Part shown: in pieces, positions 29,411-58,124 of the stretch | How positions within the stretch are numbered: position 1 is the first letter of the stretch | How the letters are laid out: each line of letters starts with the position of its first letter | DNA from: Astropecten irregularis | Lineage: Eukaryota; Echinodermata; Asteroidea; Paxillosida; Astropectinidae | Assembly (NCBI GenBank): GCA_963971285.1 | Contig: OZ020246.1 | Span: forward strand, 8,043,217-8,107,216 | Reading direction: 5' to 3' | DNA: 64,000 bases | Position numbers and translations under genes: made by a program | The notes under the pieces: generated by a model | Databases searched by the model: none | Told to the model about the DNA's origin: nothing | What the model saw: only the letters and a program-made list of their open reading frames with translations

Positions 29411-32400
29411 TTACAGCCTTGAAAGGCAGCCTCCTGTGATGAGGATGTTTTCTCCTGTGACGTAAGAGGCATCGTCAGAGGAAAGGAACGCCACTACACC
29501 AGCACATTCATCTGCTTCTCCAGCCCTTGTGGAAAGAAAATCATTCATTCATTCATTCATTCATTCACTTCAAGTTTTCAACCATTTCTTTCCTCCTTCG
29601 GAGGTAAGGATTGTCTTGAAATTGATTTGAGGATAAAAAAGTGACTGATATCAGATAAAACAAAACCAGTTTTTCACTGATAGTGACAGTTGTTTAAAAA
29701 TTTTTTAAATGCCAATAGACCTTATTACTGACACTAATTCCCTCAGTCATCTTAAATGTAAGACAATGCTAAAAGCAATCTAGACAAAACAATCTATGTA
29801 TCTATGACATTTAGCCTAGAAAACTCAAATGACCTCATGCCTGAGGAACCTATAGAAGCCTCTAACAAAAACAAAAACCAGTCACTCTCCTGAGGACGAA
29901 CAGAGCACACTGTTCAGAACGCCAAGATAATACCAACAGTTCTTCTCAGAACCACACACTCTCACAGAAGAGATTGCATGGTGTCACCGCAAACCTACCT
30001 TTCTTTTAACCTCTAACAACGGTAGCCAAAGTATTTTCTAATATTTTTTGTACCTTTTTATTGCTCCTGTCGACAAGGCAGTGTCCAGAATTGCCTCATT
30101 ATTCCACAACTGAAAATAACACGAGACAAATTCAAAATTAAAAGGTAAAATGGCTACTTGTTGTCTCTCTGATAATTGTTTGTGAATCGTTCGTGAATTG
30201 TACTCACAGTCTCGCTGAATTTGGTCTTGATGATGCCGGGAGCAATACAGTTAACTCTGACACCCATGGGGCCACATTCAGAAGCAAGCGCCTTGGTCAT
30301 GCCAAGGAGAGCTGTCTTAGAAACGGAGTACGGTCCCAGGTACTACACAGAGAGCAGATTAAAAAGTAAAACCCAAACACTGAGAGTAATCATGGACAAC
30401 AATTACAGTCATCAATTACAGTCATCTTTCATTATAATACCGGGATCAGCTGCATTAACTTGTTTCTTTTTGTACATGCAAACAAAGAGACACATAGAAA
30501 AGAAGAGCCTTAAAATTTAGAGTGGATTTGTTACACCATTCCTTATACAAAGAGTCAACTTCATTTTGATTTAATTTGATATTTTAGGCTTTACATGGTT
30601 GAAAAAATGCCTTGAGGTTTACAGTGCACTATTTGGTATTTTTGTGGGTGAAAAGGGTAGATTCTGGAAAGGAAGTACTGGTAAAGATTTTAACTTTGCC
30701 ATCAGCAGACTGGCAAATAATGACAATTCCGCAAAAGCCCAAGAAACCCCGCTGAATATTGCTATAGCTTGTTGGCCCTCGAGGAAACTTTGCATTTTCT
30801 TCACTAGTCGTGGTAAACTGGTATTATAGCATACAAATGAATCAATAATATCATGTAGCTTTAGCCTCGAAAGGTTTGTTCACATCCCTCCAAAGTAAAC
30901 CCCGAATAGTGTCTGCATAAGTGTCTTGATTCAGACTAGAGTAAAAATCAGAAATACTTACAGAGAAAGGCTGGTAACCACCAACTGAAGAAACAATCAC
31001 AATTGAGGAACCCCTGAAACAATCCAAAAATTACACAATTACTCTATCTGCTAAAATGTGTCACTTTCAAAGGTCCCTAGTGCTAGAATGTAAGATAATT
31101 GATAATTCGTGGCCTGTAATGGGATGTCAACAGAAGGTTTGGGGTTGAAAAGGTGAAACCTGGTGCTGAATAAAATTATCAAATTTGTAATGTTTTGAAT
31201 TAACAATGTCATAATTCATAGCTTCACTGACATCAATTAAAACAAAACGAAATTAAACAAGACTATTAATTCTTTTATAAGCTGCCAAAGGAAAGTGTTC
31301 TTCAATCTACCCCGAGCAGAAAGTTTGCGCTTCGTTTGCAGCAATTTTAGTAGATTTTTTTAAGTAGCAGAGGAGAATGATGAAAGACTGAAATCCTCAA
31401 AAAAAGGTTCACTTACTTTCTATCCTTCATATGTGGAATGCATTCCTTGATGAGCAGAAAGGCAGCCTTCACATTGATATCAAAAATCTGTGATAAAACA
31501 AACAGCCTTCTATGTAAATCCTGCTAGGATTTAAACGTGTCAGGCCCTCCAAACATTTGATATATTTTACTATTTTAGGTCAATATTTTGGCTGATGAGC
31601 CGTTTGCAGCAGTTTATTGTATCATAGTAAAATAAACCCAGCTGAAATACATCATTCAAGTCAGCTTACAAAATCACTATAAAAGAAATTAATTTTTTTG
31701 TAATGAATACTAATGGAAGAGCTGGGTTTGTAACACACAGAGGCTGATATAACAGTGGTTTAAGGAATGAACATAGAGATTATGGGGTCATTCCCTTCAA
31801 TACACTCCAGCTGAAAGATACAAGGTTGAAACTACATGTATCTGACAGTAGCCTTCATGGAGAGTTAAAAGGTCATCCCTTCCAATACAATCCAGTCGGG
31901 CAAAGTCTGCCACTATCGGTAAACATTTTGAAAACAAAACATTTTTCTTACCTTATCCCACTGTTCTTCTGTTGTCTGGGGGAAAAAGATCAGACAAACT
32001 TGATATTTGATATGATTCTATTGAAAAAATTGAATAAATTCGTAGCAGAAAACATTACCTACTTGCCAAAAGTAAAAATAGGTTATGAACAAGTTACTAG
32101 CAAAGTGATGTGTTTCTAAATGCATTTACCTTATCTCTTTCTATTGATTGTTAATAATTAATTCCAACTTGTAAAAAAATATCAGGTCTAGTTGTGCACA
32201 AAGTAAATATCTAAATACCTGTAGCATTGGACCAAAGACTGGATTTACAGCTGCATTAGATACTAAAATGTCTATTCCGCCATGTTTAGCCACCGTCTGA
32301 AAAAAAAAAGAAAGATGCACATTTGTATTTCACATCAACCTATTACAATTGATACAAGGTTTGCAATGATAAAAGGCTGGGATTTTGACAACAATTTGGA

Positions 32401-33844
32401 CTTCCAGTGAAATAAAATGGGTGACATGATTTTGAATGTTTCACATGCTGGTAGTGTGTAAGCAATATGCATAAATTTACTTCAATTACAATTGATGACT
32501 TAGTGTACAATTTCACTGCATAGCAAACTGTTTGATCTGTGTTATAAATAATATATACATGTACTTGTTGCACTGTACTGCTAAGACAAAACTGGCTGCC
32601 AAAACTAGAAGTCTTCCAAATATTTGCTATCAGAAATGTTGTCTCACAACTCAGTGCTTCCTCCAGTTTCTTTCTTTTAAGCTGTAAAAGGGTTTCTGAT
32701 ATCTGATAGTACCTCATTGACGAGTTTGGAACGGTGTTCCGCCTTCCCAACGTGACAGACCATACCACTGACACTCAGGTCAGCAGCTTGCAGTTCCTGG
32801 ACAGCCTTGTCCACGTTAACCTGTTTGCGACTGCTGATGACCACATGGGCACCCTCATTGCCTAACCGTTTGGCAATTGAGAGGCCGATCCTGTAAATTT
32901 AAGGACGGGGAATATTCCAAAATATCATATTACAAGAAAACAGTTGTAGATCCAGATCCTGGATCTGGTCCGACCTTCTGAATCCTCTCCCAATTTTGTT
33001 CTTTTTCAATAAAACATAATTTTTTTGGCGATCCTGTTCTTGGCAAATGCCTCACAGAATATAAAAAGGTGATGAAAACTGACCTTGTTTTGAAGAAATT
33101 TGCCCATACGAATCAGTATAGTGCATGAAAAGCCTGCGAACGTACCGTGACCGATACAAACGTGTCGATCCCCACTGCAGCTATGCAGGCTATTATTACA
33201 CGCCTTGCACACACCGGTTGGGTGAGGATCCGGAAAGGTCGGATCAAGTCTGGGATCTGACTTTCAACAATAGCCATCTTTACAATTGTAAGAGTCTCCA
33301 TGGTCTTAGTCAGACTTAGGCCGGCCGAGTCACTGAGGCTGGTATGATGTGATACAACTACAAGTTCTAATAATAATATTTTCTATTTCTAAACTTAAGT
33401 TAAACTTGTTTGTTTTGTTTTTGGACAAACTTGTTTTTTATTTTTAAAGAATACATCGACAGGGTTTGTTTACGTTTGTGCATAAAGTTTAAAGTGTGAC
33501 TAAATAAAAGGAAGAACTCCATCCCCTCCCATCATGGAGGTACTCCCATCATCTTCTGCTCACCTCCTGCATCTGCAGCCCATCCCCTATTCCAGCCACG
33601 CCCCCTTCCCAGCTCCACCCCAGTCCTACCAGTACACCTGTGTCTTTTTTTGCACTTACCCTTCAGTGGATGCAGTTACAACTGCAACTTTTCCAGCCAA
33701 CCTTTTGCAAGCAAAATCACTCGTCATTCTGACAGATAGGTTTTGATAACGGTGAAGTAACGTCACTCTTTTTACCAAACCTGTATTAAAAAGTGTCCGT
33801 AAATGGCTTGAAAGAGCGCTTATTGACATTGTACTCAGCATCAT
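29411..33844 (-). CDS. DHRS4: DHRS4-like short-chain dehydrogenase/reductase, nine exons, complete
   Basis: NADPH-dependent carbonyl/retinal reductase of the classical SDR family, usually peroxisomal. Minus-strand exons: 33844-33660, 32890-32713, 32296-32219, 31975-31952, 31487-31417, 31013-30962, 30342-30208, 30109-30054, 29525-29411 (TAA). Phases are consistent and give 297 residues. Cofactor loop VTASTEGIGL spans the exon 1/2 junction. SSRK-type NADP selector reads [19 protein letters not shown] carries the structural Asn; IVIVSSVGG carries the catalytic Ser; [18 protein letters not shown] carries Tyr and Lys; [14 protein letters not shown] follows. The C-terminus SRL is a peroxisomal PTS1. 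The N-terminal ~40 residues are basic and Ser-rich ([20 protein letters not shown]), like a mitochondrial presequence. ATGs at 33844, 33841 and 33829 are all usable. Exon 4 is only 24 nt. Confidence 0.95.
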
Positions 33845-34316
33845 GCATCAGCTAAATCACTTTAACTCCAATCACGACCTTTGACCTTTAACCCCCCCCC
33901 CCCCCCCCCCCCCCTTCACGGCCAGCTAGCTGCGTCTTTCGTGCAGATTATCTATACCATTTATAAAGAGGGGTGGTGTGCGTTAAACCACCGTGTTTAA
34001 CGTGGTATTTTATCTACAATGAAATATGATGATAAATCGGTAAAGTAATCACTAATAAAAAGAAAATATAATTTGATTTTGATATAGCTTACATATACCT
34101 ACAGTACATTTTCAAACAAATATGTAATATTAATCATTGACACCCCTATAAATCTAATACAATCGAACCTTCCGATCCACAAGAGGTACGCAAAGCGCGC
34201 GGTTTTCAACATAAGCCCGCGTTGTAAATAATGCAAGCAAGCTACCTAGCACCTGACTATTCCTATTCCAACAAGTAGGCCTACCCCTAAAAATTTGTGT
34301 CGAATACAGTTGAAAT
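33845..34316. promoter_or_regulatory. Short head-to-head interval between DHRS4-like (-) and dNK-A (+)
   Basis: Only 472 bp separate the two ATGs, so a shared bidirectional promoter is likely. A run of about 22 C (about 33893-33914) sits close to the DHRS4 side, and GCGCGCGG-type words lie at 34194-34202. I cannot place transcription starts. Confidence 0.4.
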
Positions 34317-36667
34317 ATGTTGGGTGAAAATCAACAAAATGCTGATTCAATACCTGAGGTCCCTCATAGTAAACTGACCGAAGCAAAACGAAAACGTCAT
34401 GGAAAAACAAAAACCTCCAGGAGCAACGTTGCCATTGGTCGCTCAAGCTCAAAAACTTCTTCGGAAAATCGGACACCATTGACTCATGACATCAGCTCAA
34501 TGCTTGGCAACGTTAGCCTCGCCAGTGGGACTGAGAATGCCGGTAAACCTGTAACAGTAAGTCTATTCTTTCTCTTTACCCCGATGATATATTTTTTTGT
34601 ATCTATTAGTATTAGGCCTTTGCCTAAAAATTTCCTACAAATTAATCTAGCTGCAGTTATAAATAATGTTTTCACTTTCAACTTGCCTGCTTGACTTATT
34701 TTACTGTCTTCATTTGGGGTTCCTGAGCTGAGGTTTAGTACACTCAGGTTAGCTGGTACCCTGTTTCTACTCACCTAAATACGACTCTTCATCTATTGTG
34801 CCATGGGTATCAGCTAATCTGAGTGTACTAAACCTCCTCAGGTACCCCCTTTGTAAGGGTCAAGTACTAAATAGAACTCCGCGCTCGCGACGTCACATTC
34901 AGATGTTAGGACAAACAAGTCGCACTTGGCCCAATTTAATTTAACTTACACGTAAACGTTGTGGAGTTTGTCCGAACATCTGGATAACTATAGCTGCCGA
35001 TATAAAGGGTGTATTCTATAAATAGCTTGAGCGCAGAGCCCTATTGTGACTGTGGATGCAAGGGCACTAACTTTACTAACTAGGCCTACATGTAATTTAA
35101 GTGTTCCTGTTTGCAGTGCAGCTAATGAATATTTTTATAATGTTTATTACTTCCAGATTATTATCGAGGGCAACATTGGTTGTGGGAAGTCTACACTACT
35201 GAAGCACTTTGGCCAAAAGGATGATATTGAGATCTTTCCAGAGCCAGTACACAAATGGAGAGACAACAGAGGAGAGAATATGCTGGTAAAAGAATATTTT
35301 TCATTGTAAATTCAAGACCATACATTTAAATTTCAGTTTCAAATGTGTTTAGCTCAACTTTTAAAATGTATCTAATTTAAATTCAAAGTTTGTAATTCAT
35401 TGACTTATTTTAATACAGGAATTGTTCTACAAGGATCCAAGCCGTTGGAGTTGTGCATTTGAATCTTACAATCAATTTACGCTACTCCAGGAGCATCAAG
35501 CCCAGCCCAACTGCAGGATTAAATTGATGGAACGTTCCATCTTCAGTGGCAAATACTGCTTCATGGAGAGCCTCTATGAAAGGTATCATGACTATGAAGT
35601 TTGACTATGAATCTTCCTTAATCTTTTAAAACACCACTTCATGTAGTCCCTGATCCATCTTGCATTTGTTGGACTTTGACAAAGTCACCCAGCAAGCCCC
35701 ATTTAGAATTGCAGTGGAAGACAATATAAGAGCATTGCAATCTTTAAAAAAAACTGAAATATAAGCTTACATTTTAAAAGTTTTACTTGATCCACTGTTT
35801 TTGAATTTGGATTCACTTTCAAACTACATGTAATTTCTACTTGCAGGGCTTCCAGGCACTTGACTTTACAGTCGTACTAAGCATGCCACCTTCTCAGCAT
35901 AAACATGTCAACAAGGTCAAACTTTAATCTAAATACACACATTTTGTTTCTAAATCACAGCAAGAAGTTGCATACTGCAGAATACAATGTGCTGACTGAG
36001 TGGTTCGATTGGCTGATCACAACAAAGGATGTACATGTTGATCATATAGGTAAGAAAAGCCAGAAACCTGTTAATAAAGAAGACAACTAGGCATTTGGAA
36101 TCATTAAAAATGCTCTTGAATTGAAAATGTTCTGAGCTCAGCAAATGAAAAAAAAAATACAGAAAATGGTATTTTTATAGAAATATAAAATTTAAATCTT
36201 TGTTTTTGAATTGTATTAAATACTGAAAGCAATGTAAACAAGAGAAATTAATGAATTTTTGCTATTTTGTCCTCAGTGTACCTACGCAGCACCCCGGAGC
36301 AGTGTGAGAGGCGCATCATTGAGCGAAGTCGTAAGGAGGAGTCTGGGATACCTCTGGACTATCTGAGAGACCTTCATGAAAGGCACGAGGATTGGCTTAT
36401 AAGGAAGAAATTTGCACTTCCAGCTCCAGTATTAGTAAGTTATCTTCTCCTTTGCCACGTTCTGCCCTATCCTGTGCTATAATCCTCTCTGATTGTTCAT
36501 GGTCTATATAAAAGTATATATTTTGATCCTTTGTTGCACAGATTATGAATGATCAAATTTGTATCAATTTTATTATCTTCCAGATTCTTGACGCATCCAA
36601 ACCTCTCGACGAAATGGTGCATCAGTTCAAACACCTTGAAGAGCAACTGGGCTTTAATATAGTATGA
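34317..36667 (+). CDS. TK2: Deoxynucleoside kinase, TK2/dNK type, paralog A (six exons)
   Basis: Enzyme of the dNK/TK2/dCK/dGK family: phosphorylates deoxynucleosides with ATP in the salvage pathway. Exons: 34317-34556, 35157-35285, 35419-35582, 35961-36049, 36277-36434, 36584-36667 (TGA); 287 residues. Core motifs: P-loop GNIGCGKST, EPVHKWRDNRG, DPSRWSCAFESYNQFTLLQ, MERSIFSGKYCF (the DRS/ERS catalytic motif), EWFDWLI, YLRSTPEQCERRI, lid RSRKEESGIPLDYLRDLH, and HEDWLIRK. Exon 1 (80 residues) is unrelated to the usual mitochondrial leader: it begins MLGENQ, has a basic cluster KRKRHGKTK (residues 24-32) and RTPLTHDISS (52-61). The ATG context is weak, but MLGENQ is shared with paralog B, which supports it. 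TK2 versus a multisubstrate dNK cannot be decided. Confidence 0.93.
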
Positions 36668-36805
36668 ATTATAATACAATGTATCTATATTATAATTCTA
36701 ATTTGCCTTTAAAAACAATCTTTACCTAGTAAGAACATTTAATATTTAAGCACTGGGCATTACTAGATTTTTTACCTCAACTTTGTTTCTCCGTCAGTGT
36801 TGTGT

Positions 36806-37022
36806 AAAGTCCTTTTCACACGATGCTAAAAAAACTCTCAACCATTGAGAAATGTTCTCATGGTTGCGTAATCTTACAAAAGTGTCGTTGTGTGAAAGGA
36901 CACCAATGCTTGAGAGTGACCGACGTCCCTGGTGAATCCTTGAGAGATTTTGACTGAGGTCCAGACACATGAGAGAATTTCTCAATGGTGAATTTTCTTT
37001 TAGCGTCCTGTGAAAAGGCTTT
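36806..37022. mobile_element. MITE-like element with CTTTTCACACGATGCTAAA ends
   Basis: AAGTCCTTTTCACACGATGC at the left mirrors GCGTCCTGTGAAAAGGCTTT at the right (one to three mismatches over ~25 bp); the ~165-bp interior has further inverted words such as CCATTGAGAAAT and TTTCTCAATGG. No transposase frame. Confidence 0.8.
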
Positions 37023-37031
37023 AATACATAA

Positions 37032-37167
37032 TTAATGGGAACATTTTGGAGAACCGGTCTTCAAGTCAACAGCGCACGCAATTATGAGCATGCGTGCATT
37101 GTTTTACGCATGCGTACGCGTGCGTGCGCTGTTGGCTTGAAGACCGGTTCTCCAAAGTCTCCCATTG
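37032..37167. mobile_element. Hairpin element with GGAGAACCGGTCTTCAAG arms
   Basis: Inverted arms of about 45 bp, AATGGGA...GGAGAACCGGTCTTCAAGTC and its complement ending TCCCATT, enclose a GC-rich CpG-dense core of ACGCATGCG-type words. A second copy lies at 63777-63924 in the HERPUD gene. Confidence 0.88.
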
Positions 37168-40428: not shown

Positions 40429-43400
40429 TTATAGAGTTTTCGGCAGTATTTTGTCTTCGAGGCATTTGAACTGGTTCACCATTTCATCCAGAGGCTTTGT
40501 AGCATCTAGAACCTGCAGCACCACAGAAAACAAAGCAAAAACAAACATGGTAAGAAAGATGGTAAAACGGGTGCAAGTTGAAGACATTACAAAACTACCA
40601 TACTGCAAACTGGAAGTGGAAGCAAATACCAATGAGAGAGGGTGCATTGATGGTAAATCGAGGCAAGCAGGCTGAATAAGACTTAATGTTAAAATGTTGT
40701 TTTGTCTAACCAGACTAGTCAGTGCAGCAGCTTAAATTATTCTTTTTTGTATGACACTGAATATCATCGTTGTGACTGCTCACAAACTGTCAATTTGGAA
40801 GATTCAAACAAAAGTTGTATGTACTAGTTGTAATCAGCTGATCCGAGGAAAAGTTGCAGGCCTGATGTACACAACACACCCATTTCAGTATTAAATCTGG
40901 AAAATTGTACGAATCCTACTTTCATAGGTTGAAGAAATTAATTGAGACTTATAAACATATAGTCTTACCAACACTGGTGCTGGGAGTTGAAACTTTGTTT
41001 TCCTGATAAGCCAATCTTCGTGTGTCTCATGGAGATCTCTCAGATATTCCAAAGGTATCCCAGACTCCTCTGTACGACTTCGCTGGATAATCCGCCTCTC
41101 ACACAGCTCAGGGGTGCTACGCAGGTACACTATTTCAGGAGGTCAAACAATGCAGATAACAAATACATTTAAATAATACCATACATATTTATTTGTAAAT
41201 TATTTTGACAAAATATCTGAACTACCACAAATCCAACTTTTGCTGTGTAGTGACTGAATGTGTATAGACTATTACAGGAGTTTTTCTGTAAAATTATTTT
41301 GTGGCTTTGCTCACAAGATTTAATAACTTACGCTCTTACTTCACTTAGTGTTTAAGCTCCAAAATGATTTTAAAATGTAGGTAAGACACTCACCTATATA
41401 GTCAATGTGAAGGTCCTTTGTTGTAATCAGCCAATCAAACCACTCACATAAGACATTGTACTCAGGTCTCTTCAGCTGCTCACTGTTAAATATAAAACAA
41501 AAGCACTTTATCCAAAACAATTCATTCTGAAAAGTTGAGTAAGTGCAAACAGTATACTAGTGTATTTGACATTTTATAAAAACAAGAGATTAGAGAATCT
41601 TGACTTGTACACCATGGGCCGATTTCACTAACACTTTGCAATCAACGCTATTTTAAACCAAAATCCATCACTACATGGAAAACTGCTATGCAAAGTAGTG
41701 ATCAATTTTCCGTTTTGCGATGGATTTGGGCTTTAGCGATGATCACAAAGGGTTATAGTGTGAAATCGGCCTCAGGGGTCGTTTTCACGAAACTCATCGT
41801 AACTTACTTTCAATCATAGGACTCATGAAGCATTTGCAGCCCTACATAGGATATGATGGGTTATCCCTTGTAACTGGAGTTACGATCGATCATAGGGCTT
41901 CGTGAAATTAACCCCAGATGACTCATCATGACTACAATAATAATTCGCAATTCTTTCACGTTACAGACCCTACATGTATGCACCCGCCACAACATTTTTG
42001 ATAGCAAGAACAGCCCTGTAACCACCAGTTTTCACTTTTTATTTTACCACATTATCTCACTTGTTAAGATGTGAACCTACCTTTTATACAGATTCTCCGT
42101 GAAGCAGTACTTGCCACTGTATATGGACCTCTCCATCAATTTGTACTTGCAGTTTGTCTGAGCCTCATGCACTTGCAGTCTGGTGAACTGGGCATACGAC
42201 TCAAAGGCAAAACTCCAACGACTGGGATCTTTGTAGAAGAGATCCTGAAAGGAAAATATTGCGAGATCCTTACTTTTACAATTTTGCATTTTTTAGTCCA
42301 AAACGTCTTGAAATTAACAGGAAGAGAATTGTGGCATGCATGATCATTACAATGATGTCACTGTCCATTCTGCAATTTTGCGAGGAAAATGTTTATTTTT
42401 CCTTGAAATTTTCCCATCAGATGACATATACATGTATAATAGATAATCTTCCAGGAAGTGAAGCATATCAAAGAAAGTATAACACAATAAGAACACTTCA
42501 TACATTTTCTGACTTAGGAGATTAATAATATTACATTTATATAAGCACATTGTGCAGTTTCTTCAGCACTAGAAGAATTATTCAAATTTTATTCAACCTC
42601 AGACCAATTAGATATTTACCAATAAATTCTGTCCTTTGTTGTCTTTCCATTTATGGACTGGTTCTGGAAAGACCTCGATGTCATCCTTGTGACTGAAATA
42701 TTTCAGCAGAGTGGACTTTCCACTACCAATGTTTCCCTCGACAACAATCTAAGTTTGAAAAAAGAAATGCATTTTATGTTAGTGACCATGCAGATTCAAC
42801 ATGTTCAAACCGGAAAAAAGCAGTATTCTATTACTATCTTTAATACTTCCCATTCAAATAACAGAACAAAGTTGGAAAGTTTAATATCATATGGGAAAAC
42901 AATTTAGACAGAAAACCTGTCACAGTGTCAGCAAAATTCTTTCCTTGTTAAGGTTTATATGCTAATTGATACAATCATGACAATGGATGGCACTGGCAGG
43001 CGTTCTACACTCCAACTTTTTTCAAAACAAAGTCAAAGAAACCAACGATCTGACGATCATCATTTATTTCTGATACAAAACTCAAAAGCATCGACTAGGG
43101 CCTACTGTAGTCAGGTGGTAGTACAACGACAAGAACTTAAAAGTACAAATACAAGAACTGCTGCAAACTGCTCATCAGCCAAAATAGGATCCGAACTGTT
43201 GTTAGGCCCTATATTATTGCCAGGGTCACCAAATCAGGCCCAACAGATAAATGAGGCAACGTTAAATACTTACAGTCTTAGTTTTTTCCGAAGTATCTCC
43301 ATCCAAACCATTTCCACTGATGCTTAAGTTGCAAATCTTTGAGCTGATATCGCCCAAAGGTGCGCGACTTTGGGTGTCGCATGTTTTTGAAGGTGTCGTG

Positions 43401-43504
43401 TTGCTGTGTGCATTATTTTCGCGCCGTGTCTGCTTCATCCCCGTCGGGGTTTTTGACCGGTTCTGTGGCATGACGCTGAGGTTCTCTTGATTTTCTCCCA
43501 ACAT
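40429..43504 (-). CDS. TK2: Deoxynucleoside kinase, TK2/dNK type, paralog B (six exons)
   Basis: Minus-strand exons: 43504-43274, 42748-42620, 42244-42081, 41482-41394, 41129-40969, 40512-40429 (TAA); 285 residues. The splice positions match those of paralog A exactly. Core motifs: P-loop GNIGSGKST, EPVHKWKDNKGQN, DPSRWSFAFESYAQFTRLQ, MERSIYSGKYCF, EWFDWLITTKDLHIDY, YLRSTPELCERRI, lid RSRTEESGIPLEYL. The last exon ends ILPKTL. Exon 1 (77 residues) starts MLGENQENLS and is polar and Ser/Thr/Asn-rich, with no mitochondrial leader character. It contains RAPLGDISS at 47-55, which fits the cyclin-type destruction box RxxLxxI, and RREN at 27-30. An E2F-like word TTTCGCGCC lies inside this exon at 43417-43425. 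ACAG directly precedes the ATG, so an upstream leader exon is possible. Confidence 0.93.
41617..41915. mobile_element. Two adjacent hairpin MITEs in a dNK-B intron
   Basis: First element 41617-41771: GGCCGATTTCACTAACACTT against TATAGTGTGAAATCGGCC. Second element about 41775-41915: GGGGTCGTTTTCACGAA against TTCGTGAAATTAACCCC, with inner words CATCGTAACT and AGTTACGATCG. They abut with only three bases between. Both end sequences follow the 'GG..TTTCAC' pattern, hinting at related transposases. Confidence 0.75.
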
Positions 43505-44029
43505 CTGTGATGACGTCTCCCTTGAGGGAATCAGAAATATTCTTAAATTGTTATAAATTTGACGATATAACGAACAAATCATAGATTTTTTCAGTGGGAT
43601 TCCACACAAAGATGTACAAATGTACACGTACGTCAACAAACAAGCTTTCTGAAAACCCCGCGCTTTGGAGATCGTACTATATTTTAAATGAGGGTGAAAT
43701 TTGTTGTTTGATATGTATGTTTTTTTTAAATAAGTGAAATAAGACAAAATATAGAGCAATAAGAGCAATAAAACATCATTCAAAAGTACAATTACATACA
43801 TAAAGCTGTTATAAAGATGCTTTCTTCTTCTTTTAGACAATCCTTTTTAATTTGTCGATGTTTGGATCCCCCTTTAAATAAAATGGTTCCGCTTCGAAAA
43901 GGTCATTGCGCTAGCTAGATGATATGAGCGCGCGGGATATTCAATTCAACAGTTGTGTTAAAATTGCGCCGTCTTTCTAACGTTAGCTCAGTCAGTTTCG
44001 TCGGTTTTTGAGACAAATTTTCCGTGAAC
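43505..44029. promoter_or_regulatory. Bidirectional promoter interval between dNK-B (-) and dNK-C (+)
   Basis: The ATGs of the two divergent paralogs are 525 bp apart. The C-proximal part has CpG-containing words (GAGCGCGCGGG at 43926-43936, TTGCGCCG near 43963). A shared promoter would co-regulate two dNK paralogs. No TATA box could be placed with confidence. Confidence 0.45.
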
Positions 44030-46649
44030 ATGTCGAAGGAAAATGACGAAAAAGCCGGTGAGGAGTTGCACAGTCCTTTGACAAACATGATTCTGACGCG
44101 GCAAAACCGGTTCGAACACCTGGAATCCAAATCTCATACTCCATGTAGGACGAATTCTCAACATAAACACCGGGCACCGCTGGGTGATATCAGTTCTGTG
44201 AGCAACATCATCGGTGAAAATGGCTACATTTATGACAAGCCAAGAACAGTAAGCATGAACATTATGTCGCTTTATAAAGCTTGGGCAAGCATGGAACTAT
44301 AGGTAGGAGGGGGTTGGAAATTAGGGAAAAGTGGAGGGGTCGATGATTGGCTCATGTTTATAAAAAATGAAATACAAGTGTACAAACTGTACATGCATGT
44401 CCTCCTATTCCTAATTTATAAATAATGTGTTGCACTGGCCTAGTTAAACAAATAGTGAAAAATAGGGCATAGCACAGTTAGGGGCCATAGGTTTTAGAAC
44501 ACTGACAAAACATATGCTGAGGTTTATTACTACACTGTCTTAGAAGTAAGAAGAGTTTGCACTTAATTACGTTTTCAATAGACCCAGGCCCGGCCCCAGT
44601 AACTAGCACGACAAAAGTCGACAATGCATGGAAAGCTAACTAACGTTAGTCTTCGTATGACCGGCATTAAGCAAGGACCAGGCCGTCAAGTAGGCCTACA
44701 GGCTACAGCAAGTTACAACTGGTCTACCATCTAGGCTTTTACAATTAATCTAAATACATTTTACTCAGAATATTATCTTGCAATTGCACTTTTTTTCAAT
44801 TTCTCAGATCGTCATTGAAGGCAACATTGGCAGTGGAAAGTCAACATTACTCAAGTATTTTGGCCAAAAGAAGGGAATTGAGGTCTACCCTGAGCCTGTC
44901 CAAAAGTGGCAGGACAATCGAGGGCAGAACATGTTGGATCTCATGTACCAAGATCCTTGTCGCTGGAGCTTTGCCTTCCAGTCCTTTGTTCAGTTCACGA
45001 TGCTTCAGGTGCATCAAGCCCAGACAACTCGCAGAGTCAAGATGATGGAGCGTTCCATTCACAGCGGCAAATACTGCTTCATAGAGAACCTGTTCAAAAG
45101 TAAAAAACTGCAGAAGCCAGAGTACAACGTCCTGAGTGAATGGTTTGACTGGCTACTGACGACAAAAGATCTTGATATTGACCACATAGGTGAGCAGACT
45201 TTGGATTTCAATCTTTAGTTCTTTACTCCCTCAATGGACCCTTCCGGCCTGTCAATCAATCTGTGCGCATTGACCAATTGGAGGACGCCTCTTAATCAGG
45301 TGACCACGAAAGCCTAACTCAAACTCAGTCACAGCTGTATGCAAAACACACACGTGGGCGGGGCTTAAGGGCAAAGCCGGAACGGTCCATTGGGCAAGGC
45401 TAACAATAACGGCATCGAAAGGACTTAATATCATTCCCCATTAAACTGAAGAAAAAAAACTTCCAAAAATTAAACCAATGATAGTAATAAAATTCAATCA
45501 AATTGAAAATTGAAGCAATAAAAGTTTTTGATGAAACATCCTTGTCTTGGACTTGTTATAGTCTAACACACTAAAATTGGAGTGGGGTTGAAGGTTGAAG
45601 CATGCTTTCTAAATGAGTTACTTAGTGCATCTTAAAGGAATCACAAGAAAACTGGACTTCATGGTCAAGAAAGCCAGCGGAACTATCCAGAATTATGAGA
45701 CTCTTTGCCAGTATTCCAGTGTCTATTCTCAGTGTGGAACAGTTCAAATTCATCCAATGATACTTTGTTTAACTCCTTCTACTTTCTAATCCAGTGTACC
45801 TGCGTAGCACCCCTGAGCAGTGTGAGAGGCGGATTAAAGAGCGGAGTCGTTCAGAGGAGTGTGGGATACCTCTGGACTATCTGAGAGACCTTCATGAGCT
45901 GCATGAGGACTGGCTGATTAGAAGGAAATGTTTTGAGCTACCTGCCCCAGTATTAGTAAGTTCAAACATTTGTAGCGTTAGGACACTTTTATTAATTTGA
46001 GAGAGTAACCAATGAATAGTAGCAAGTATAGCAAGAAAAGATGTCAAACTTTTAATCTAGTTGAACTAGATTAAAAGTTTGACATCTTTTCTTGCTATGC
46101 AAATTCGGCTTTCCCATCACCGACGCAATGATGATGAGCACTGCATATTCAGTGGTTGTTGAGTGCACATGAAAAAATAATTCCTCAGGTAGGATTCAAA
46201 CCCATGACCTCCTGCTTAATAGTGCAAATGCCATACTGCTACACCACCAAGCTAGCTAGGTTCAGCGGGGTAAATCGAATTCAATATTGCGGCGCATTCG
46301 AATCCCACCTGAGCCAGCGAATTATTTTTTCATGTGCACTCAACAAGCACCGAGTATGCAGTGCCAATCCAACATGTCGTTGGAGGGCAAGCCTAATTTA
46401 CATCTATTTCTATCACCCCAAACAAAAAAATCATTCATATTCATGATCTTTTCTTTCTGTTATTGCTTGATGAAAAATCTTTTTCGTCTCATCAGCGTGC
46501 TTGTCTGGTGAATTCTTTGCCCACTTTTAAATAATTTCTTTCGTGTTTTTTTTTCTTTTTCCTAGGTTCTTGATGCAACAAAGCCACTGGAAAATATGAT
46601 TGAACAATTCACTCTCCTGGAAGAAAAACTAAACCTGCAAAATTTATGA
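44030..46649 (+). CDS. TK2: Deoxynucleoside kinase, TK2/dNK type, paralog C (four exons, two introns lost)
   Basis: Exons: 44030-44248, 44808-45189, 45795-45955, 46566-46649 (TGA); 281 residues. Exon 2 is 382 nt, exactly the sum of exons 2, 3 and 4 of paralogs A and B (129+164+89), so two introns are precisely absent. Core motifs: P-loop GNIGSGKST, EPVQKWQDNRGQN, DPCRWSFAFQSFVQFTMLQ, MERSIHSGKYCF, EWFDWLLTTKDLDIDH, YLRSTPEQCERRI, lid RSRSEECGIPLDYL, HEDWLIRRK. Exon 1 (73 residues) starts MSKENDEK, which contains a KEN box at 3-5; it has RAPLGDISS at 48-56, the same destruction-box-like motif as paralog B. There is no mitochondrial leader in view. The ATG follows CGTGAAC; the start is supported by equal exon layout. 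The introns hold two strong hairpins. Confidence 0.94.
46028..46098. repeat. Perfect 35-bp inverted repeat with a 1-base loop in a dNK-C intron
   Basis: The arms 46028-46062 and 46064-46098 are exact complements around G46063; the centre reads CTAGTTGAACTAG. Such a near-spacerless palindrome is unstable in cloning and could be real or an assembly fold-back at a read end. Confidence 0.9.
46141..46361. mobile_element. Second hairpin SINE family (tRNA-like core)
   Basis: Arms of about 57-62 bp (CTGCATATTCAGTGG...CATGAAAAAATAATT and its complement ending ATGCAG) enclose an antisense tRNA-like block: GGATTCAAACCCATGACCTC is a B-box complement, and GCCATACTGCTACACCACCA matches a D-arm/A-box region. 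The right arm carries the matching sense end CGAATCCCACCTGAG. The layout is the same as at 12981-13200, but the sequence differs. Confidence 0.8.
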
Positions 46650-49761: not shown

Positions 49762-52700
49762 CTAGGACGCCCAGGCAGCAAGCTCTCTCATTTCATCATC
49801 CTCGTCAGCAGCAACTTTGGCTACAAGAAAAAAGGGAAAGATTTGAGGCTTTGCATGGTGACAATTGGTATGCGGATCGGTTTGCAGAAACACCATGTAA
49901 GAATCGTTCAATATACTTTTGCACTTCTATTCAGGAGTCGCCTGATGAAGACTAGAGCAGACTAGTCAAAACATTGAGACCTTACGAGAAGTGCGAACGA
50001 AATAGAAGTGCGAAAGTACGAATGATTCTTACATGGTGTTTCCGCAAACAGATCCACATAAGAAAAAGGGAGAAATGCAAGGTAAAATATGTTAGATAAT
50101 AAATATGTTTTGTGGATATATATATACACTGTACATGAATCCAACGCACGATTAAAAAAATTGGCCCTGCGGTGTATATTATACAAAGATGGGACTTGCA
50201 CCCACAGTATAAGTGCAACGGAGTGTAAATTATTTTGTTCTCATAGAAAAGGTGGGCGGAGTCACCACAGTATTAGTGGATGGTACAATATGTCGTGTCG
50301 TCGGATCGGTGTATAGATAAATAATAAAGTGCTCACAATAATGACCTTAATAGAGGTTGCGTACTACAGGACTTAAACTTTAGTGTTAACTAGTGCTGTG
50401 CATTAAAAACGGATTTCCAGGATCCCGCTTTAGATCTAGCCATCCGGTTTCAAAATTTCAAAAACGGTGTAACAAAACCAACATTTTAAAAAGTAGGCTG
50501 ACATTTGCCCAATGAATAAACCAAGCGTTTTCTGGTTTTCAAAAGCTTCGAAAATGCACAGCACTAGTGTTAACCCCTTAAAAAGGTACAACACCAAATA
50601 ATACACTAAGTTGAGCACAACTGGAGCCAACAAATACCGCGGATGACATTAAAACTTGGGAGAATTTAGAAAATGAACTCTGAAAAATGGGACTTTACAA
50701 ATAATCTAATAAATATTGCTGAGCAAAGAGCAATTCCATCAACTTTTTTCCACCAGCTGTTTCCTTTTGGAACTCCCTGCCTACTGCATATTTCCTTTTC
50801 CCTTACTCCTACAAAAGCCAATTGTTTTTTTAGGAATAACAATTTCTATCTTTTGCCTTCAACCATATTCTTCTTGTAGATCCCTTACAGATAGTGTCAT
50901 TTAGCCTTGTTTGGGGGAAACTTGCATTAGAAACATTTAATGACAAAAGCATGGAAATAATCATAAGGCCATTAGAGAAGTTGCTTTTAGACGTGTCATG
51001 CCAACTAATTTAAACCTATCATCACAAGGTCTGGCAGGCTAGTAGATATTTCAAGTCCTGTCTCATTCATCAGTGGATCAACTTCAAGGTCAATTTGAGA
51101 AAATAAGTACTTACCAGGTTTGTCTGTTGGTACATCTGGTAACTGAGGTGCGACACTTGGTCCAACACTCAAAAGCTGCTCATCCAAATCTTCCTGTTCT
51201 AAATCTTCAAGCTCTTTCATTAAGTCATCCTGAAACAACAACAAAAATAAATAAATGTTACCCTTAACAACATTTTGCTTAGGAACCATCCAGCATGAAT
51301 ATGACAAAATCATCAAACTCGATTTGCAGTAATTGTCATAATTTTACTATAGCAACCTGAACTGTAAATCAGTGTGTATTTTCACAAGGAAGTAAGCATC
51401 CTTCATAAAGCCACCAAACATTGTGCTTTATCTTGTGCCACATTCTTAAGTCTCAGACAAGGTTATTACTGACACTTCCAGTGCCTGGACTCACAATATC
51501 TGTAAAACTCCTATAAGTCTCAGACAAGATTATTACTGACACTTACAGTGCCTGGACTCACAATATCTGTAAAACTACGGATGGATTTTGGAGAACACCT
51601 TACAGTGAGGTATAAAGCTTACATATTGCCAGCCAGCCATTATTCAGGTATCTTAATCAATTCACAGACAAGAAAACAGAAACACGAAGTTGATTGTTTA
51701 ACATATTACATAGAGGTCATGACAAGGTAATTTCGTGTCATCTGTTGTCTTTATATAAGGTATAAAAAATAAAGACAAACTCCATTTTGAAATTTTTAAC
51801 AAAATTCTCCCATCACTGAGCTGAGCTGAGATGTGAGATGGTGGCATGTAGATTACCTCATCGACATCTTGGCCAAATCCTACAGAGTTTGAGATAGCAT
51901 CGCTGATTTCATTGGCTACTTCCAGTTGCTCCTGAAGATCAGACATCATATCATCAACGTCTTCCACACCCCTGGACAACAAATAACAAACATAAAAATC
52001 TTTCCATTAAGACATTCAGATGGATATGAATGATGCTGAGTAAGGAAAAAATTGGTCTTGCTCTGTTAAGCTAGAATTATGCATGAAGCCATGTACACAT
52101 AGCCATGCATGGCTTTTACCGTTGGCTACAACTTTATAACACAATATGAAGGTGAACTACATGTTCAAACACTGGTCTAATTAATGGGTGAAAATGAACT
52201 AAGAATTTTCACACATGATAGGAAAATGCAAATATCAAACAAAATACAGTAGATGTTATACTTACATTTGTTGCTGTGCACTTTTAAGAGCCTTTGAAGC
52301 ATAAGACATCGTCTTGAGTACCTCTGTGTTAGTGTTAGCATTCTCCAATGCTTCCCTCTGAAATTCTATCGTTGACAATGTGCCATCAATCTGCCCAAGT
52401 TGTTTCTCTAGTCTCTTTTTCCTCTTCAATGCCATTATAGCAGCTGTAAAAAAAAATTATTACAGAACTTGATAGTTTACATTTGTTCATTACTCACACT
52501 ATGGACGGGAACAACAAACACCCTTCTTTCAAGCCAAACTTACATAATTATGTAGGAAGTCCACAAGTATCTTTTTTTTTTATCTTATAAAGGCTGATAA
52601 TTAAAGATCCTGCTAGGGTCAAAAAGTGTCAGGCCCTCCAACTCCAAGTATTTGATATTATTTTTGGCTGAGGAGCAGTTAGCAGCAGTTTATTAGGCCG

Positions 52701-53463
52701 ACTTGGATTCTGTCCTCTTTATCCACTTATATGTGAACATTCTTTAAATTCAACAGTGGCATAAAACTTGAATTACAAAATCGAGTAGCCCCTAATCTAA
52801 ATTTGGTGATTGTAAAGTTCAGGACCGTCCATTGTTTTTATCCCTTGCCGGAACGACCGTGAATATGTTCCATTGCGCATAATGTGCATATTGCATTTGA
52901 TAAAAACACAAGAGGGTCCCGAACTTTACAATCTCCCTAAACGTGTCTCCCATTTACAATTTAGGTGTATTTTATGTTAATGTTGCTATTTAAAAGTTAA
53001 GAATTCATTGCTGCTTCTGATCAACAATTTCCTCCTCATATTTTCTGATATGTATCTTATAAATTGTCATAATTTGGCATCAGTAATTGTAAAGTTCGGG
53101 ACCCCCCTGTCATAGCATGTCTGTGTTTTTATCACACGCCGGATCAACGGACAGGATTCTGTTACCAGTGTTGGCAGTGTTCAGGTGTTGCGCATGCTGT
53201 GCATAAATGATAAATACACAGGACTGAGGGTCCCAAACTTTACAATCGCCGCTAAGACTGCATAAACACGCCTAATTCCTGCAAAACTTACCTCTTTTAT
53301 TTCTTGTGCCATTTCGTTTCGCTTCTTTAATCTCCTCTGTGATTTTCTTCTCTAAAAACGCCTGTTTCTTTTCCAGCAATTCTTCAGTTTGCCGAAGTTT
53401 TTGGATTGCGTCGGCAGTCGTCGGTGCTTCGTCTTTTTTCTTCTTTCCAAAGATAAACGACAT
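49762..53463 (-). CDS. CHMP4B: CHMP4 (Snf7) ESCRT-III subunit, paralog 1, five exons, complete
   Basis: CHMP4/Snf7 is the main filament-forming ESCRT-III subunit, acting in multivesicular body sorting, cytokinesis and membrane repair. Minus-strand exons: 53463-53292, 52443-52266, 51971-51857, 51229-51115, 49820-49762 (TAG); phases agree, 212 residues (vertebrate CHMP4 about 220-230). Visible parts: N-terminal MSFIFGKKKK, ADAIQKLRQTEELLEKKQAF (helix 1), ALKRKKRLEKQL and IDGTLSTIEFQREALENANT (helix 2, the most conserved CHMP4 stretch), DLQEQLEVANEISDAISN and GFGQDVDEDDLMKELEDLEQ (acidic helices 4-5). The last exon ends DDEMRELAAWAS: the amphipathic LxxW helix that binds the Bro1 domain of ALIX. 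The tandem neighbour at 55736 is a diverged copy. Assignment among vertebrate CHMP4A/B/C is not meaningful. Confidence 0.96.
49870..50058. mobile_element. Inverted-repeat element with a CTGATGA...AAAAC core, in 3' flank/last intron of CHMP4 paralog 1
   Basis: Arms GGTTTGCAGAAACACCATGT/GAATCGTTC at the left and GAATGATTCTTACATGGTGT/TTCCGCAAAC at the right pair over about 75 bp, including the inner TGCACTTCTATT / AATAGAAGTGC. The loop holds CTGATGA (49942-49948), a 6-bp stem GACTAG/CTAGTC and AAAAC. It lies in the long last intron of CHMP4 paralog 1, 50 bp upstream of the last exon on the minus strand. Confidence 0.75.
51447..51580. repeat. 67-bp tandem duplication in a CHMP4 intron
   Basis: A segment starting TAAGTCTCAGACAAG and ending CAATATCTGTAAAACT is present twice, offset by 67 bp, with only two or three mismatches. 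Confidence 0.85.
52808..52933. mobile_element. Small hAT-like MITE (GATTGTAAAGTTC ends)
   Basis: GATTGTAAAGTTCAGGACC at the left mirrors GGGTCCCGAACTTTACAATC at the right; same ends as the 401-bp element at 18021. It lies in the first intron of CHMP4 paralog 1. No clear target duplication was found. Confidence 0.75.
53085..53247. mobile_element. Small hAT-like MITE (second copy)
   Basis: AATTGTAAAGTTCGGGACCC at the left mirrors GGGTCCCAAACTTTACAATC at the right. The interior shares CACACGCCGGATC-type words with the neighbour at 52808, showing the same family in the same intron. Confidence 0.75.
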
Positions 53464-55735
53464 AATGCCAGTGCAATTATTCACAAAAACCAACAAAACT
53501 TACAAATTTTCAGCTATTTGGAAGTAATTTCTCACATAAACATAGGTTCACCAACGTTATGTGTGTGACTGTGAGTGTAATGTGTAAAAATAGAGAATGA
53601 CTGCAACAAAACACCAATCAATGGTAACAGACTCATTATTGCGAAAGAATGAATAGGGATGGAAACCAGTTAAAAAATAGTTAGGCTCCTTCTTCTCATT
53701 TTTTGATCAGGTAACTAGAACAGTCAGGGAACCGTCACATAGGAAGTAAAAGTTGACGCAAAGGTGGTTTCATTGAGGGCGCCCTTGCAAAATAATGGTC
53801 AATCGACTTGGAAAATGAAAGCCCAACATAAAATAATAATGTCCACTTTAATAATACTTTTAATCCTAATACTTTTAATCAATAAACACGACGATTGTTG
53901 TAAAGCTATGACACTCCTCTCTTTCTCCTATTTTCTCCTTGGATAGGGATGAAGAGAAAGGGGGGTTGGGTGTAAACATGATTGATGGGAATCCGGGCAT
54001 GAAGCCATGGTTGAGAATGATAATTTTATACTTCAAGAAATATATTTTGGGAAAAGCATTATGTACTGAAAAGATTATGATCGAGTTAGAGAATATTGCT
54101 AAGATACAGCAATGGCTGTCTTTCCCTTCCAAATTTAATCAAGACAAGTTGGCTTTAAGTTATCCTCAAAGATGTCATGGCAACCTTTACCTGGCATATT
54201 GGGGTTTGACTTTTAAAAAGTCAAAATTGCCAAGCCAAGTGTAATCAGCTGGCATAACCTTATGGGAAGTTTCAAAGCTGTACACTTCTGCATTGTTCCT
54301 CAGAGTACTTTTTTTCTGACAAGACAAGTTTTAATAGATTCAATGCAAGCCACACCCTAACAAATAATAAAGCAGAAAATCAGACAACCAGTGAACATTA
54401 ATTCCAAAGGCCAAGGAATTAAATGTTCAGTCACAAAGAAAACATATATCACTGTAAAATTTTCTTTAGTTCAAGTGCAGCATGAGTTGCATTTCATTTA
54501 TTGCAATACCTTTATATTATTCAAGCAAAAATAATTGAATATTTAATTAGCAAAACAAATGAGTAAATGACACAATTATTGTGTAATAAGCCCATGTGAT
54601 AATTGAAAAAAGTATTAAGATAAATATGAACGGTTATATATAAACACACCCAAATAACTCTACATATAGAAAGTACCATTCATACATTTCTGTTCATTCT
54701 TTATACATTCATGAAAATTACTGCACATTTTTACAGGCATATGTAAATACAAATATATTCAATTTTCAATATTGCACTGCACTAGTTGAAGGAAGTTCAA
54801 TGACATATAAACAAGGGGCATAAAATATAAAGTATAAATTGCTTCGAACATGGAGCACCATCGTTCAAAAATAGTGGCAAAAGGGACACCACATACAAGA
54901 TTGTTAACTCAACTCTTCAAGAATTCTAATTATAGTATGAAAAATGCTGATTCACTGTTACAATTGAGAAAAAATCAACTGCAATATGTCTTTGTGTTCT
55001 ACATGGAAGAGAATGAATTTTAAACCTGAATTATCAATAACCCAAGGAGAGACTCTTTTTTACAGCATTATCAAATATTTCACAAATGTATAGGACACAT
55101 TAGGAGATACACCAGGAAAAAATAGAAGGTGCTGAACTCTCACGGTGACAACATTTAGTATAAAACAATCTTTTTCCATTACAACTGCAAAGAAAACAGC
55201 ATCCACTATGCATTTGGTGCTTTAGCCTTTGCATTTTGCTTTTGAGATGTTTGTTGATGAACACAAAAATGGAAATTTGAGGAAAAAAAACATAAAGGCT
55301 GAGTGAATAGCAGTAATGTATGCATGATATACAAAATGCATTTTTCAGAAAAATAGTGAACTACAAATGTTACTTCTGAATTAGTCTTGTGGGTGTGGCT
55401 CCTTAATAAAAAGTCTACATAAAACTAGTATGTTTAACTAGTCCTGTAGTCTAGGTTTCTGGAAGAACAATTATTAATGAAAAGCCAGGCTAGTAAAAAT
55501 TGCTGGCAGAAAATGTGCTAAGTGAAATTCACTTTCCTTCCACTTTGAAGTTACTTAATTTGTTATTTTTATAAATGTGTGCTTAAATATTGTTACCGAC
55601 TCTTTAATACCTCTGTACAATTGCTCATAATTTGTAGATGGTTTTAACTGTACAGCGCTTTGTGATGTCTTTGACACGGAAAGCATTTTTTAAGTATTTA
55701 TAATAATTATTATCTATGGAAGCAGTTTAAAGGAC
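53464..55735. other. Spacer between the tandem CHMP4 paralogs
   Basis: The 5' flank of paralog 1 and 3' flank of paralog 2. No other gene was recognised. A frame at 53939-54244 has no recognisable similarity. A candidate minus-strand polyadenylation signal for paralog 2 could not be fixed among many AT-rich words. Confidence 0.5.
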
Positions 55736-58124
55736 TCAAGACAGTTCTCTCATATCTTCGTTCTCCTCAGCATCTTTGACTGTAATGGGAAGGGAAGCAA
55801 GGGGGAAAATCACATGAAATATTGATATTTTGGTAAAAATCTATATTATGGGAAAAATGTGAGATTTGTGTACAAACTCAATGGCATTTCATTTTCTGAA
55901 TTACAACTGGAGGGCCAAAGTTTTAGAATACAGTTACAACAAAGTTTAAGTTTCAGAGGGAGTCCACATAGTCTTGGCAGTCCAGTGAATATTTCAAATC
56001 CTGTATCATTCATCTGGGCATCAACTTAAAGGACAATTTGAGAAAATAAGTACTTACCAGGTTTGTCTGTTGGTACATCTGGTAATTGAGGTGCGACACT
56101 TGGTCCAACACTCAAGAGCTGCTCATCCAATTCTTCCTTTAACAAATCGTCAAGCTCTTCCATCAAATCATCCTAAATGACAAACAGAATGAAAAGCCCT
56201 TATGACTTCTTGCATGTACTTCGGCTAGGAAATGAGCCATCGAAACCACCGAATAAGCTTAAAGTGTCATTGTCCAGACCTAGAAGGCCCTGCTAGAACA
56301 GGGCTGGATTTGGGAGAAAATATGATGGTTAATTGGTTATGTATAGAGCTTTTGCACTGCCTGCCAACGCTGAATTAACAATGGTTACTCCAAATTTATG
56401 GACCACTTAGAACAAAGTTTTGTTCTCATACATATCACAGACAAGGGGAAGTCATGTACTGTCATGTGAGGTTTTTATATGAAAACAGTGTTTAAGAATA
56501 TTTGTCACACTTAAATTTGTAAACAACTATTTTGAGCCAAGCTGTAAGATACTTCATATGACTTACCTCATCACCATATTGACTGTATCCCACCAAGATT
56601 GGAATACATGTAGTAGGAGTGATTTCAATGGCTCCTTCCTCTTGATTCTCCAGGCCTGACATTATATCATCATCTTTGACATCCCTACACACAAATTATT
56701 GCGGAAATACAAACTACAAATAAGAAACTCAGTCTTGGAAAAAAAATGGAAGGTATGACATGTTCTCTCTCTCCCTGTCATGTGACCAATAATACTTACA
56801 GATTCAAGACATTCTCCTCACCTGGAGATGGCAAAGCATACTGGTTTAAATGTTAAGTTAGAAAGTTCAAAAGTACTTCAGCTTCTTTTTAGAAATGTGA
56901 CACCAAAACCCTTCTTAGAATTCCATTGTCACTCAAATTCTTGAAGAATGTGTTCTTGATCAAGGAAAGTCGACCTTAAACATTTAAGAATGAAATCCAT
57001 CAAAATGTCTGCTGATTTTACAGTTGGTGGGAGCTTCATGACAAAGTTTATGTAAGTGACATGCACTGGCTAAAACAAAATTGCAAATGGAAAATTCAAG
57101 GTTTGAAAATAAAATCCTAAAATATCATGCTACTTACAATTCCAGCTGTGCATTTTTCAGAGTTGTTCTAACATGGATCATTATCCTGAGTTCTTCTTTT
57201 TCTGTGCTGGCACCCTCCAGAGCTTCTATCTCAAACTCCATTTCTGTCAAAGTGTAGTCAATCTTCGTCAGAAGAATGAGTAGTCTCCTTTTTCTCTGCA
57301 ATGCCATTATAGCCACTGTGAATAATTGAAAGGTTTGGAACTTTGTCAGTTTTGAACATTGATATTGTGCCAACAATAACGATTATCAGTTCATCAGAGT
57401 CCTTTCAAGCCCAACAATAATACAAGGAAAAAAAAAAGAATGCAGTAATTTCATGACATATTATAAGCCAGTAAAATAAATTAATTTGATTGATGGTATT
57501 ATTGCAATACCTTGCAAAGCATTTTAGACTAGAGCCTCGAACTTATTTTGTGATTATATAAGTGATGAATACAATATTTTGTTACTGAAATAACATCTTA
57601 GAAAACAAAATTGGTATTGGATGGATCCTGAAGGGCAGTATAATAAGTCTGATTGGATTTTACTTCTCTGTATTGTTTTACTTGAGGAATTTGCATACTG
57701 TAATACAAGAATCTAATGGAGGTAGAAATGAAAGTAGGCCTAGTATACATGTATAGAGTTGATAATCTTAGTTGAAAATTACATGTTGTTTTGACCAGGC
57801 AAATTAAACACTAGTGAGCAAGTCATTTAAAATTTATAGTTCGCTGAGTGTATCTAGTTTTTGCGGAATTTTGCCAAACTTACTCTTCTTGTTGGCCATG
57901 CCATTCTTTTTTGCTTCTTTAAGTTCCTCTTCGACTTTTTTCTCTACAAATGCCTGTTTCGTTTCCAGCAATTTTCCTGATTGACGAAGTTTTTGGATTG
58001 CATCAGCCGGAGTTAGTGTTTCTTCTTTTTTCTTCTTTCGACCAATTTTAAACGTTAGTGTTTCTTCTTTTTTCTTCTTTCGACCAATTTTAAACATGTT
58101 AGACAAGCCAGATGCAAATGACAT
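55736..58124 (-). CDS. CHMP4-like paralog 2, diverged, five exons, altered C-terminus
   Basis: Minus-strand exons: 58124-57884, 57315-57138, 56684-56567, 56172-56058, 55779-55736 (TGA). Exon order and phases match paralog 1, and the frame stays open for 231 residues. Exon 1: MSFASGLSNM, then FKIGRKKKKEETLT twice in a row, then ADAIQKLRQSGKLLETKQAF. Exon 2 is diverged (ALQRKRRLLILLTKIDYTLT against ALKRKKRLEKQLGQIDGTLS in paralog 1), roughly 45% identical by eye. Exon 3 has lost nearly all the helix 4 residues and has one extra codon. Exon 4 is almost identical at the DNA level to paralog 1 in its second half. The last exon ends NEDMRELS, so the ALAWAS-type tryptophan helix that binds ALIX is missing. 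It could be a neofunctionalised or dominant-interfering ESCRT-III subunit, or an early pseudogene without stops yet. Confidence 0.82.
58012..58095. repeat. Perfect 42-bp tandem duplication in CHMP4 paralog 2 exon 1
   Basis: Positions 58012-58053 and 58054-58095 are identical. Being 42 bp, the duplication adds 14 residues (FKIGRKKKKEETLT) without shifting frame, doubling the basic KKKK membrane-binding patch. The absence of any mismatch suggests it is recent. Confidence 0.93.

Follow-up and report, generated by a model that had tools for sequence, protein, structure and literature searches.

In vertebrates, the ribonucleotide reductase subunit R2 (RRM2) is degraded by the anaphase-promoting complex/cyclosome (APC/C) with Cdh1 and carries an N-terminal KEN box, and human TK2, a kinase of Pfam family PF01712, has a mitochondrial leader. 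For the vertebrate salvage enzyme TK1, degradation by APC/C-Cdh1 has been described as proceeding through a C-terminal KEN box, at residues 203-205 in human (PMC7694900). Here we describe a 64-kb stretch of the Astropecten irregularis genome (the window; contig C9, positions 8043217-8107216 of a 475.7-Mb genome; GC 36.7%) that holds three TK2/dNK-type (PF01712) deoxynucleoside kinase genes, A, B and C. The first exons of B and C both encode the nonapeptide RAPLGDISS, which, judged by its sequence, is a strong candidate destruction box (D-box). On balance we favour the view that B and C are cytosolic or nuclear TK2/dNK-family kinases degraded by the APC/C via this N-terminal box, and the sequence match suggests that they would be destroyed once per cell cycle. 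Such enzymes would resemble vertebrate TK1 as salvage deoxynucleoside kinases whose tail carries a degron recognised by the same ubiquitin ligase, and would differ from it in family (PF00265 for TK1) and in having an N-terminal candidate D-box rather than a C-terminal KEN box. RRM2 is likewise a dNTP (deoxynucleoside triphosphate)-supply enzyme with an N-terminal degron, a candidate one in B and C, but serves de novo synthesis rather than salvage and uses a KEN box, not a D-box. Cyclins A and B share with B and C the nine-residue box type in an N-terminal exon, whereas B and C are metabolic enzymes in which residue 9 of the block is Ser and not Asn. PF01712 kinases and APC/C D-boxes are each known, and their combination would be the new part; among the open-access titles listed, we found no paper on degradation of a PF01712 kinase or joining these kinases with APC/C D-boxes.

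A preliminary description of this DNA had placed RAPLGDISS in both paralogs within an otherwise poorly alignable exon, and this is borne out, as the string is present in both exon-1 translations and 15 of the 59 other aligned B-C residues are identical. In the six reading frames of the window, RxxLxDI occurs three times, two of them being B and C, and the looser R..L..I.[NSG] occurs eight times including these two. Published work gives the D-box consensus as RLPLGDISN, with Arg1, Leu4 and Asn9 as key residues and Pro3 and Ile7 binding best, and reports a KD of 19.6 uM for RAPLGDISN on the WD40 domain of Cdc20 (PMC12401543). The string in B and C differs from this Cdc20 ligand solely at position 9. 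Each paralog therefore matches the ligand at 8/9 positions and the consensus at 7/9, and none of 20,000 shuffles of each exon-1 peptide equalled either score. The D-box core, RxxL with a hydrophobic residue 7, is present in both as R-A-P-L-G-D-I; the bare form RxxLxx[ILVM] is a weak signature, found in 3.5-5.3% of 50,000 exon-1 shuffles. Among 74 collected D-boxes, RxxLxx[LIVM] fits 41 and RxxLxxxxN only 18, so that Asn9 is not strictly required (PMC3315528).

The block is also constant between B and C. Over its nine codons the two genes have six differences in 7.5 synonymous sites and none in 19.5 nonsynonymous sites (NG86), compared with a dS of 1.85 and a dN of 0.165 for the kinase exons and a dN of 0.70 for exon 1 as a whole. 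Identity is 9/9 in the motif and 15/59 over the remaining aligned positions of exon 1 (Fisher p 2.7e-5), the latter becoming 4/63 when the motif serves as an ungapped anchor, and the corresponding test on nonsynonymous changes gives p 2.8e-6; both values are too small, because the block was picked for being conserved. No nine-residue exon-1 window clear of the motif exceeds 5/9 identity. A whole-genome search with B exon 1 returned itself and one match at E 5.7 and did not recover C, and the rest of the exon is therefore far diverged. In a maximum-likelihood tree of five sequences, A groups with B (bootstrap 74% of 200), so that the common ancestor of all three genes probably already had the motif, which was then altered in A. 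On this tree it is probably older than the split and has persisted in two lineages.

That B and C are kinases of this family is clear from their spliced proteins, which score 193 bits (E 6.4e-57) and 196 bits (E 7.9e-58) against the curated PF01712 cut-off of 27; A is placed there by exon-by-exon matches only. Kinase-domain identities are 75% (A-B), 73% (B-C) and 72% (A-C). The best Protein Data Bank (PDB) match of C is 1j90 (E 6.5e-60), the deoxyribonucleoside kinase dNK of Drosophila, to which all three kinase domains are 47-48% identical (chain 1j90_A). This match begins at residue 70 of C, and exon 1 has no matched counterpart there. In all three genes the phase-0 end of exon 1 immediately precedes the strand of the P-loop (IVIEGNIGSGKST in C), and exon 1 therefore constitutes a separate N-terminal module of 73-80 residues. 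By composition alone (charge-hydropathy and TOP-IDP, exon 1 versus the gene's own kinase part), this module is disordered-like in A, B and C, with charge-hydropathy values of -0.11 to -0.14, 17-23% WFYILVMC and 5-7 lysines. The first acidic residue comes at position 4 in each, and by composition the modules look unlike a mitochondrial presequence, with the frame of B being open upstream; A and C share the PF01712 kinase domain with human TK2, as B does, but appear to lack its mitochondrial leader. A leader seems, by composition, to be present on a fourth PF01712 gene elsewhere in the genome, the intronless gene D (187 bits), which has 9 basic and 0 acidic residues among its first 51, an amphipathic moment of 0.56 and no RAPLGDISS-like motif. 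Because of this mitochondrial-type leader, D is likely the mitochondrial dNK, and it may have arisen as a retrocopy that took over or retained this function. The proposal of a disordered, non-mitochondrial N-terminus accordingly fits the composition of exon 1 in B and C, with the reservation that an upstream ATG could add a leader to B.

The genome also encodes TK1 (locus L011, contig C11:3369500-3379400, minus strand), a hand-spliced model of which matches chain 2orv, a human thymidine kinase, at E 2.9e-72. Unlike human TK1, the model has no KEN box in its C-terminus, read to the stop (tail ...KPSLTSLSPEINGNPQHTPTIEGAV...). In the open literature we found no paper on a KEN box in invertebrate TK1, and for sea urchin deoxyribonucleoside kinase one TK1 review only. 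As for the kinases in the window, the preliminary description had added a KEN in C and RREN at residues 27-30 of B as further signals. Both strings are where it placed them; RREN is by definition not a KEN box and was rejected as one, and the KEN of C is doubtful. Among the three first exons KEN occurs in C only, and a bare KEN appears in 3.2-4.0% of 50,000 shuffles (4% for C). As regards a possible ancestral KEN at residues 3-5, the KEN of C can be aligned ungapped with the GEN found there in A and B, whereas MAFFT instead sets it over QEN/QQN at residues 6-8 of A and B. Many KEN boxes lie close to D-boxes, and binding of KEN peptides was seen with Cdh1 but was not detectable with Cdc20 (PMC8764033). 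Since a KEN that starts at K5 of human AURKA is entered as one not believed to act as a degron (PMC9713472), we give the KEN of C little weight, and it may be inert.

A number of observations weigh against a D-box in these kinases. Position 9 is Ser in B and C, not the Asn of RxxLxxxxN, and the two match the published D-box RAALSDITN at only 5/9 positions, a score that 174 (B) and 102 (C) of 20,000 shuffles attain as well. In the binding study, the consensus peptide RLPLGDISN itself gave no detectable binding, for which the authors suspect solubility, peptide affinity was no predictor of degradation, and the cell assays, in which each of four natural boxes drove degradation, did not include RAPLGDISN (PMC12401543). 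Genome-wide, RxPLGDI[S-like] is not enriched (7 matches versus 9 for the reversed control); the motif is carried by only two sequences, the very paralogs compared; and its lack of nonsynonymous change is not significant when set against the kinase exons alone (p 0.09). The upstream extension of B is leader-like, with an amphipathic moment of 0.51 in its long form and 3 basic and 1 acidic residues. Finally, A matches RLPLGDISN at 3/9 positions, which is chance level (15,419 of 20,000 shuffles reach it). Its RTPLTHDISS, previously described as a related signal, is indeed at residues 52-61 and does not fit RxxLxxI because of one extra residue between L and D; with the spacing broken and a consensus match no better than shuffles, we rejected A as a third D-box carrier, and the notion of cyclin-like destruction signals in the first exons of these kinases is supported for B and C (D-box match, constancy, disordered-like exon, no leader) and not for A.

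These points bear on several other explanations. The block could be a functional short linear motif that is not an APC/C degron, such as another docking, localisation, phosphorylation or contact element resembling a D-box: its constancy points to function and not to which one, A keeps DISS without the D-box spacing as if DISS served something else, and few of the 143,972 RxxL strings across five proteomes can be degrons (PMC3315528). Given how closely RAPLGDISS follows both the consensus and a measured Cdc20 ligand, we nevertheless consider this unlikely. The PP2A-B56 LxxIxE and cyclin-docking RxL motifs misfit on inspection, no motif library having been searched. It is distinctly improbable that B, perhaps with others, is mitochondrial by way of its upstream start, with the motif lying in an imported protein beyond APC/C reach. 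Vertebrate TK2 and dGK are mitochondrial, and the open upstream frame of B offers MICSLYRQIYNNLRIFLIPSRETSSQ, which is amphipathic and has few acidic residues; against this, in-frame stops close the reading frames of A and C at 2 and 7 codons ahead of the ATG, A-B similarity begins only at MLGENQ, the evident leader sits on the separate gene D, and a preserved D-box would be needless in an imported protein. We also found no sign of translation for the upstream extension of B.

We regard as very improbable that the common string is leftover ancestry or a chance likeness without present function. B and C are neighbouring paralogs and the only two copies, and genome-wide the string does not outnumber its reversed control, the looser string giving 44 matches versus 32. 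Yet six of 7.5 synonymous motif sites have changed with the amino acids unchanged, and the tree makes it probable that the motif is older than the split and was retained in two lineages. Four of the five RxPLGDI[S-like] matches besides B and C lie in open segments of 14, 29, 47 and 31 codons, and in the fifth the codon for position 4 specifies Phe in place of Leu. Five of the 44 looser matches, read in context, lie in open segments of 19, 36, 70, 55 and 31 codons, the last being one of the four short-segment matches just mentioned; two further looser matches were also inspected.

If B and C are indeed APC/C substrates, we infer expression, location, binding, ubiquitination and timing as follows. 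During S phase the kinases would be active in the cytosol or nucleus. At mitosis or on exit from it, RAPLGDISS would be docked by Apc10 and by Cdc20 and/or Cdh1, after which ubiquitination of lysines in the flexible tail or the kinase domain would lead to removal of the enzyme. Cytosolic or nuclear deoxynucleoside salvage would thereby be confined to S/G2, as with vertebrate TK1. The KEN of C may add Cdh1 affinity, and A, having lost the canonical spacing, may be stable or weakly or differently regulated. The start codons of B and C face each other head to head across a region that is presumably a shared promoter, and two of the five E2F-type TTTSSCGC sites in the window lie in exon 1 of B and C, which is weak evidence that would suit S-phase transcription. 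A wider scenario, possible but rather doubtful, is that cell-cycle destruction of salvage enzymes in this lineage concerns not TK1, whose model has no KEN box, but a tandem family of TK2-type kinases, cytosolic or nuclear, that gained a first exon bearing a cyclin-like D-box, with the intronless paralog doing the mitochondrial job. If true, two salvage kinase families would have been put independently under the same mitotic ubiquitin ligase through degron tails at opposite protein ends, a convergent evolution of dNTP-pool control that suggests how an animal with a KEN-less TK1 could still silence salvage after mitosis.

For comparison with cyclins, six cyclin-like loci were taken from 14 genome matches, their frames being read rather than full gene models. 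In two of them, L033 and L036, a frame upstream of the match to cyclins holds a cyclin-type box (RAALGTLST and RGALENISN, respectively), and we take these loci to be cyclins A and B; RAALGTLST, if a D-box, likewise has no Asn at position 9. Apart from these, short frames hold nothing but RxxL strings at L034 and L037 and a KEN at L037 and L038, and neither RxxL nor KEN was found at L035. For RRM2, the N-terminal exon was not found within the genome stretch examined. Ribonucleotide reductase small-subunit matches are exon-split on C17, form a long frame of 492 codons on C22 and two frames of 343 and 385 codons on C23 (separated by 5 kb, on opposite strands and with equal E-values), and occur as adjoining pieces on the small contig C152. 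In viral contigs scanned with protein B, seven stretches matched a pattern and none codes for a relative.

Gene models (Table 1) were drawn by eye from splice signals. A whole-genome PF01712 search gave at least 9 matches, at least 8 of them in the window and at least 1 on contig C29. Exon 2 of C is the fused counterpart of exons 2-4 in A and B.

Table 1. Coordinates of the kinase genes and associated elements (window positions unless a contig is named)
Feature	Position	Strand	Remarks
Paralog A gene	34317-36667	+	six coding exons in model
Paralog A exon 1	34317..34556	+	MLGENQQNAD...GKPVT
RTPLTHDISS of A	34470..34499	+	residues 52-61; spacing from L to D longer by one residue; no canonical D-box
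Paralog A kinase exons 2-6	35157..36667	+	PF01712 matches to single exons
Paralog B gene	43504-40429	-	six coding exons in model
Paralog B exons 2-6	42748-42620, 42244-42081, 41482-41394, 41129-40969, 40512-40429 (span 40429..42748)	-	kinase part
Paralog B exon 1	43274..43504	-	77-residue N-terminus MLGENQENL...KTKT; splice model, gt donor
RAPLGDISS of B	43340..43366	-	candidate D-box, residues 47-55
E2F-type TTTSSCGC site	43417..43424	+	inside B exon 1, overlaps RREN codons
B in-frame upstream extension with ATG	43505..43582	-	MICSLYRQIYNNLRIFLIPSRETSSQ, possible alternative leader, 26 residues
B/C intergenic divergent region	43505..44029	.	525 bp between start codons, genes head to head
Paralog C gene	44030-46649	+	four coding exons in model
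Paralog C exon 1	44030..44248	+	73-residue N-terminus MSKENDEK...KPRT
KEN of C	44036..44044	+	residues 3-5
E2F-type TTTSSCGC site	44098..44105	-	inside C exon 1
RAPLGDISS of C	44171..44197	+	candidate D-box, residues 48-56
Paralog C exons 2-4	44808-45189, 45795-45955, 46566-46649 (span 44808..46649)	+	kinase part
Gene D (L001)	contig C29:11358310-11358906	-	PF01712, intronless; begins MSLSKIVRVSPRIIVRSCFVGVSSCLRRRSNVK

The last intron of C contains a perfect 35-bp inverted repeat with a 1-nt spacer (46028-46098) and an adjoining inverted repeat of 51 bp at 90% complementarity (46133-46183 / 46319-46369), which are perhaps small mobile elements. Downstream of A, inverted repeats with arms of 34, 22 and 58 bp at 36801-37163 are perhaps of the miniature inverted-repeat transposable element (MITE) type. 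On the minus strand at 51005-58178 there are, by eye, two neighbouring Snf7/CHMP4-like genes, of which a single exon, at 54.2 bits, exceeds the Pfam cut-off, with exon 1 of that copy falling below it; in the other copy, the exon at 57834-58178 contains FKIGRKKKKEETLT twice and matched no family. A multi-exon short-chain dehydrogenase-like gene occupies 30154-33847 on the minus strand, the one exon tested scoring 29.5 bits for PF00106 against a cut-off of 26.6.

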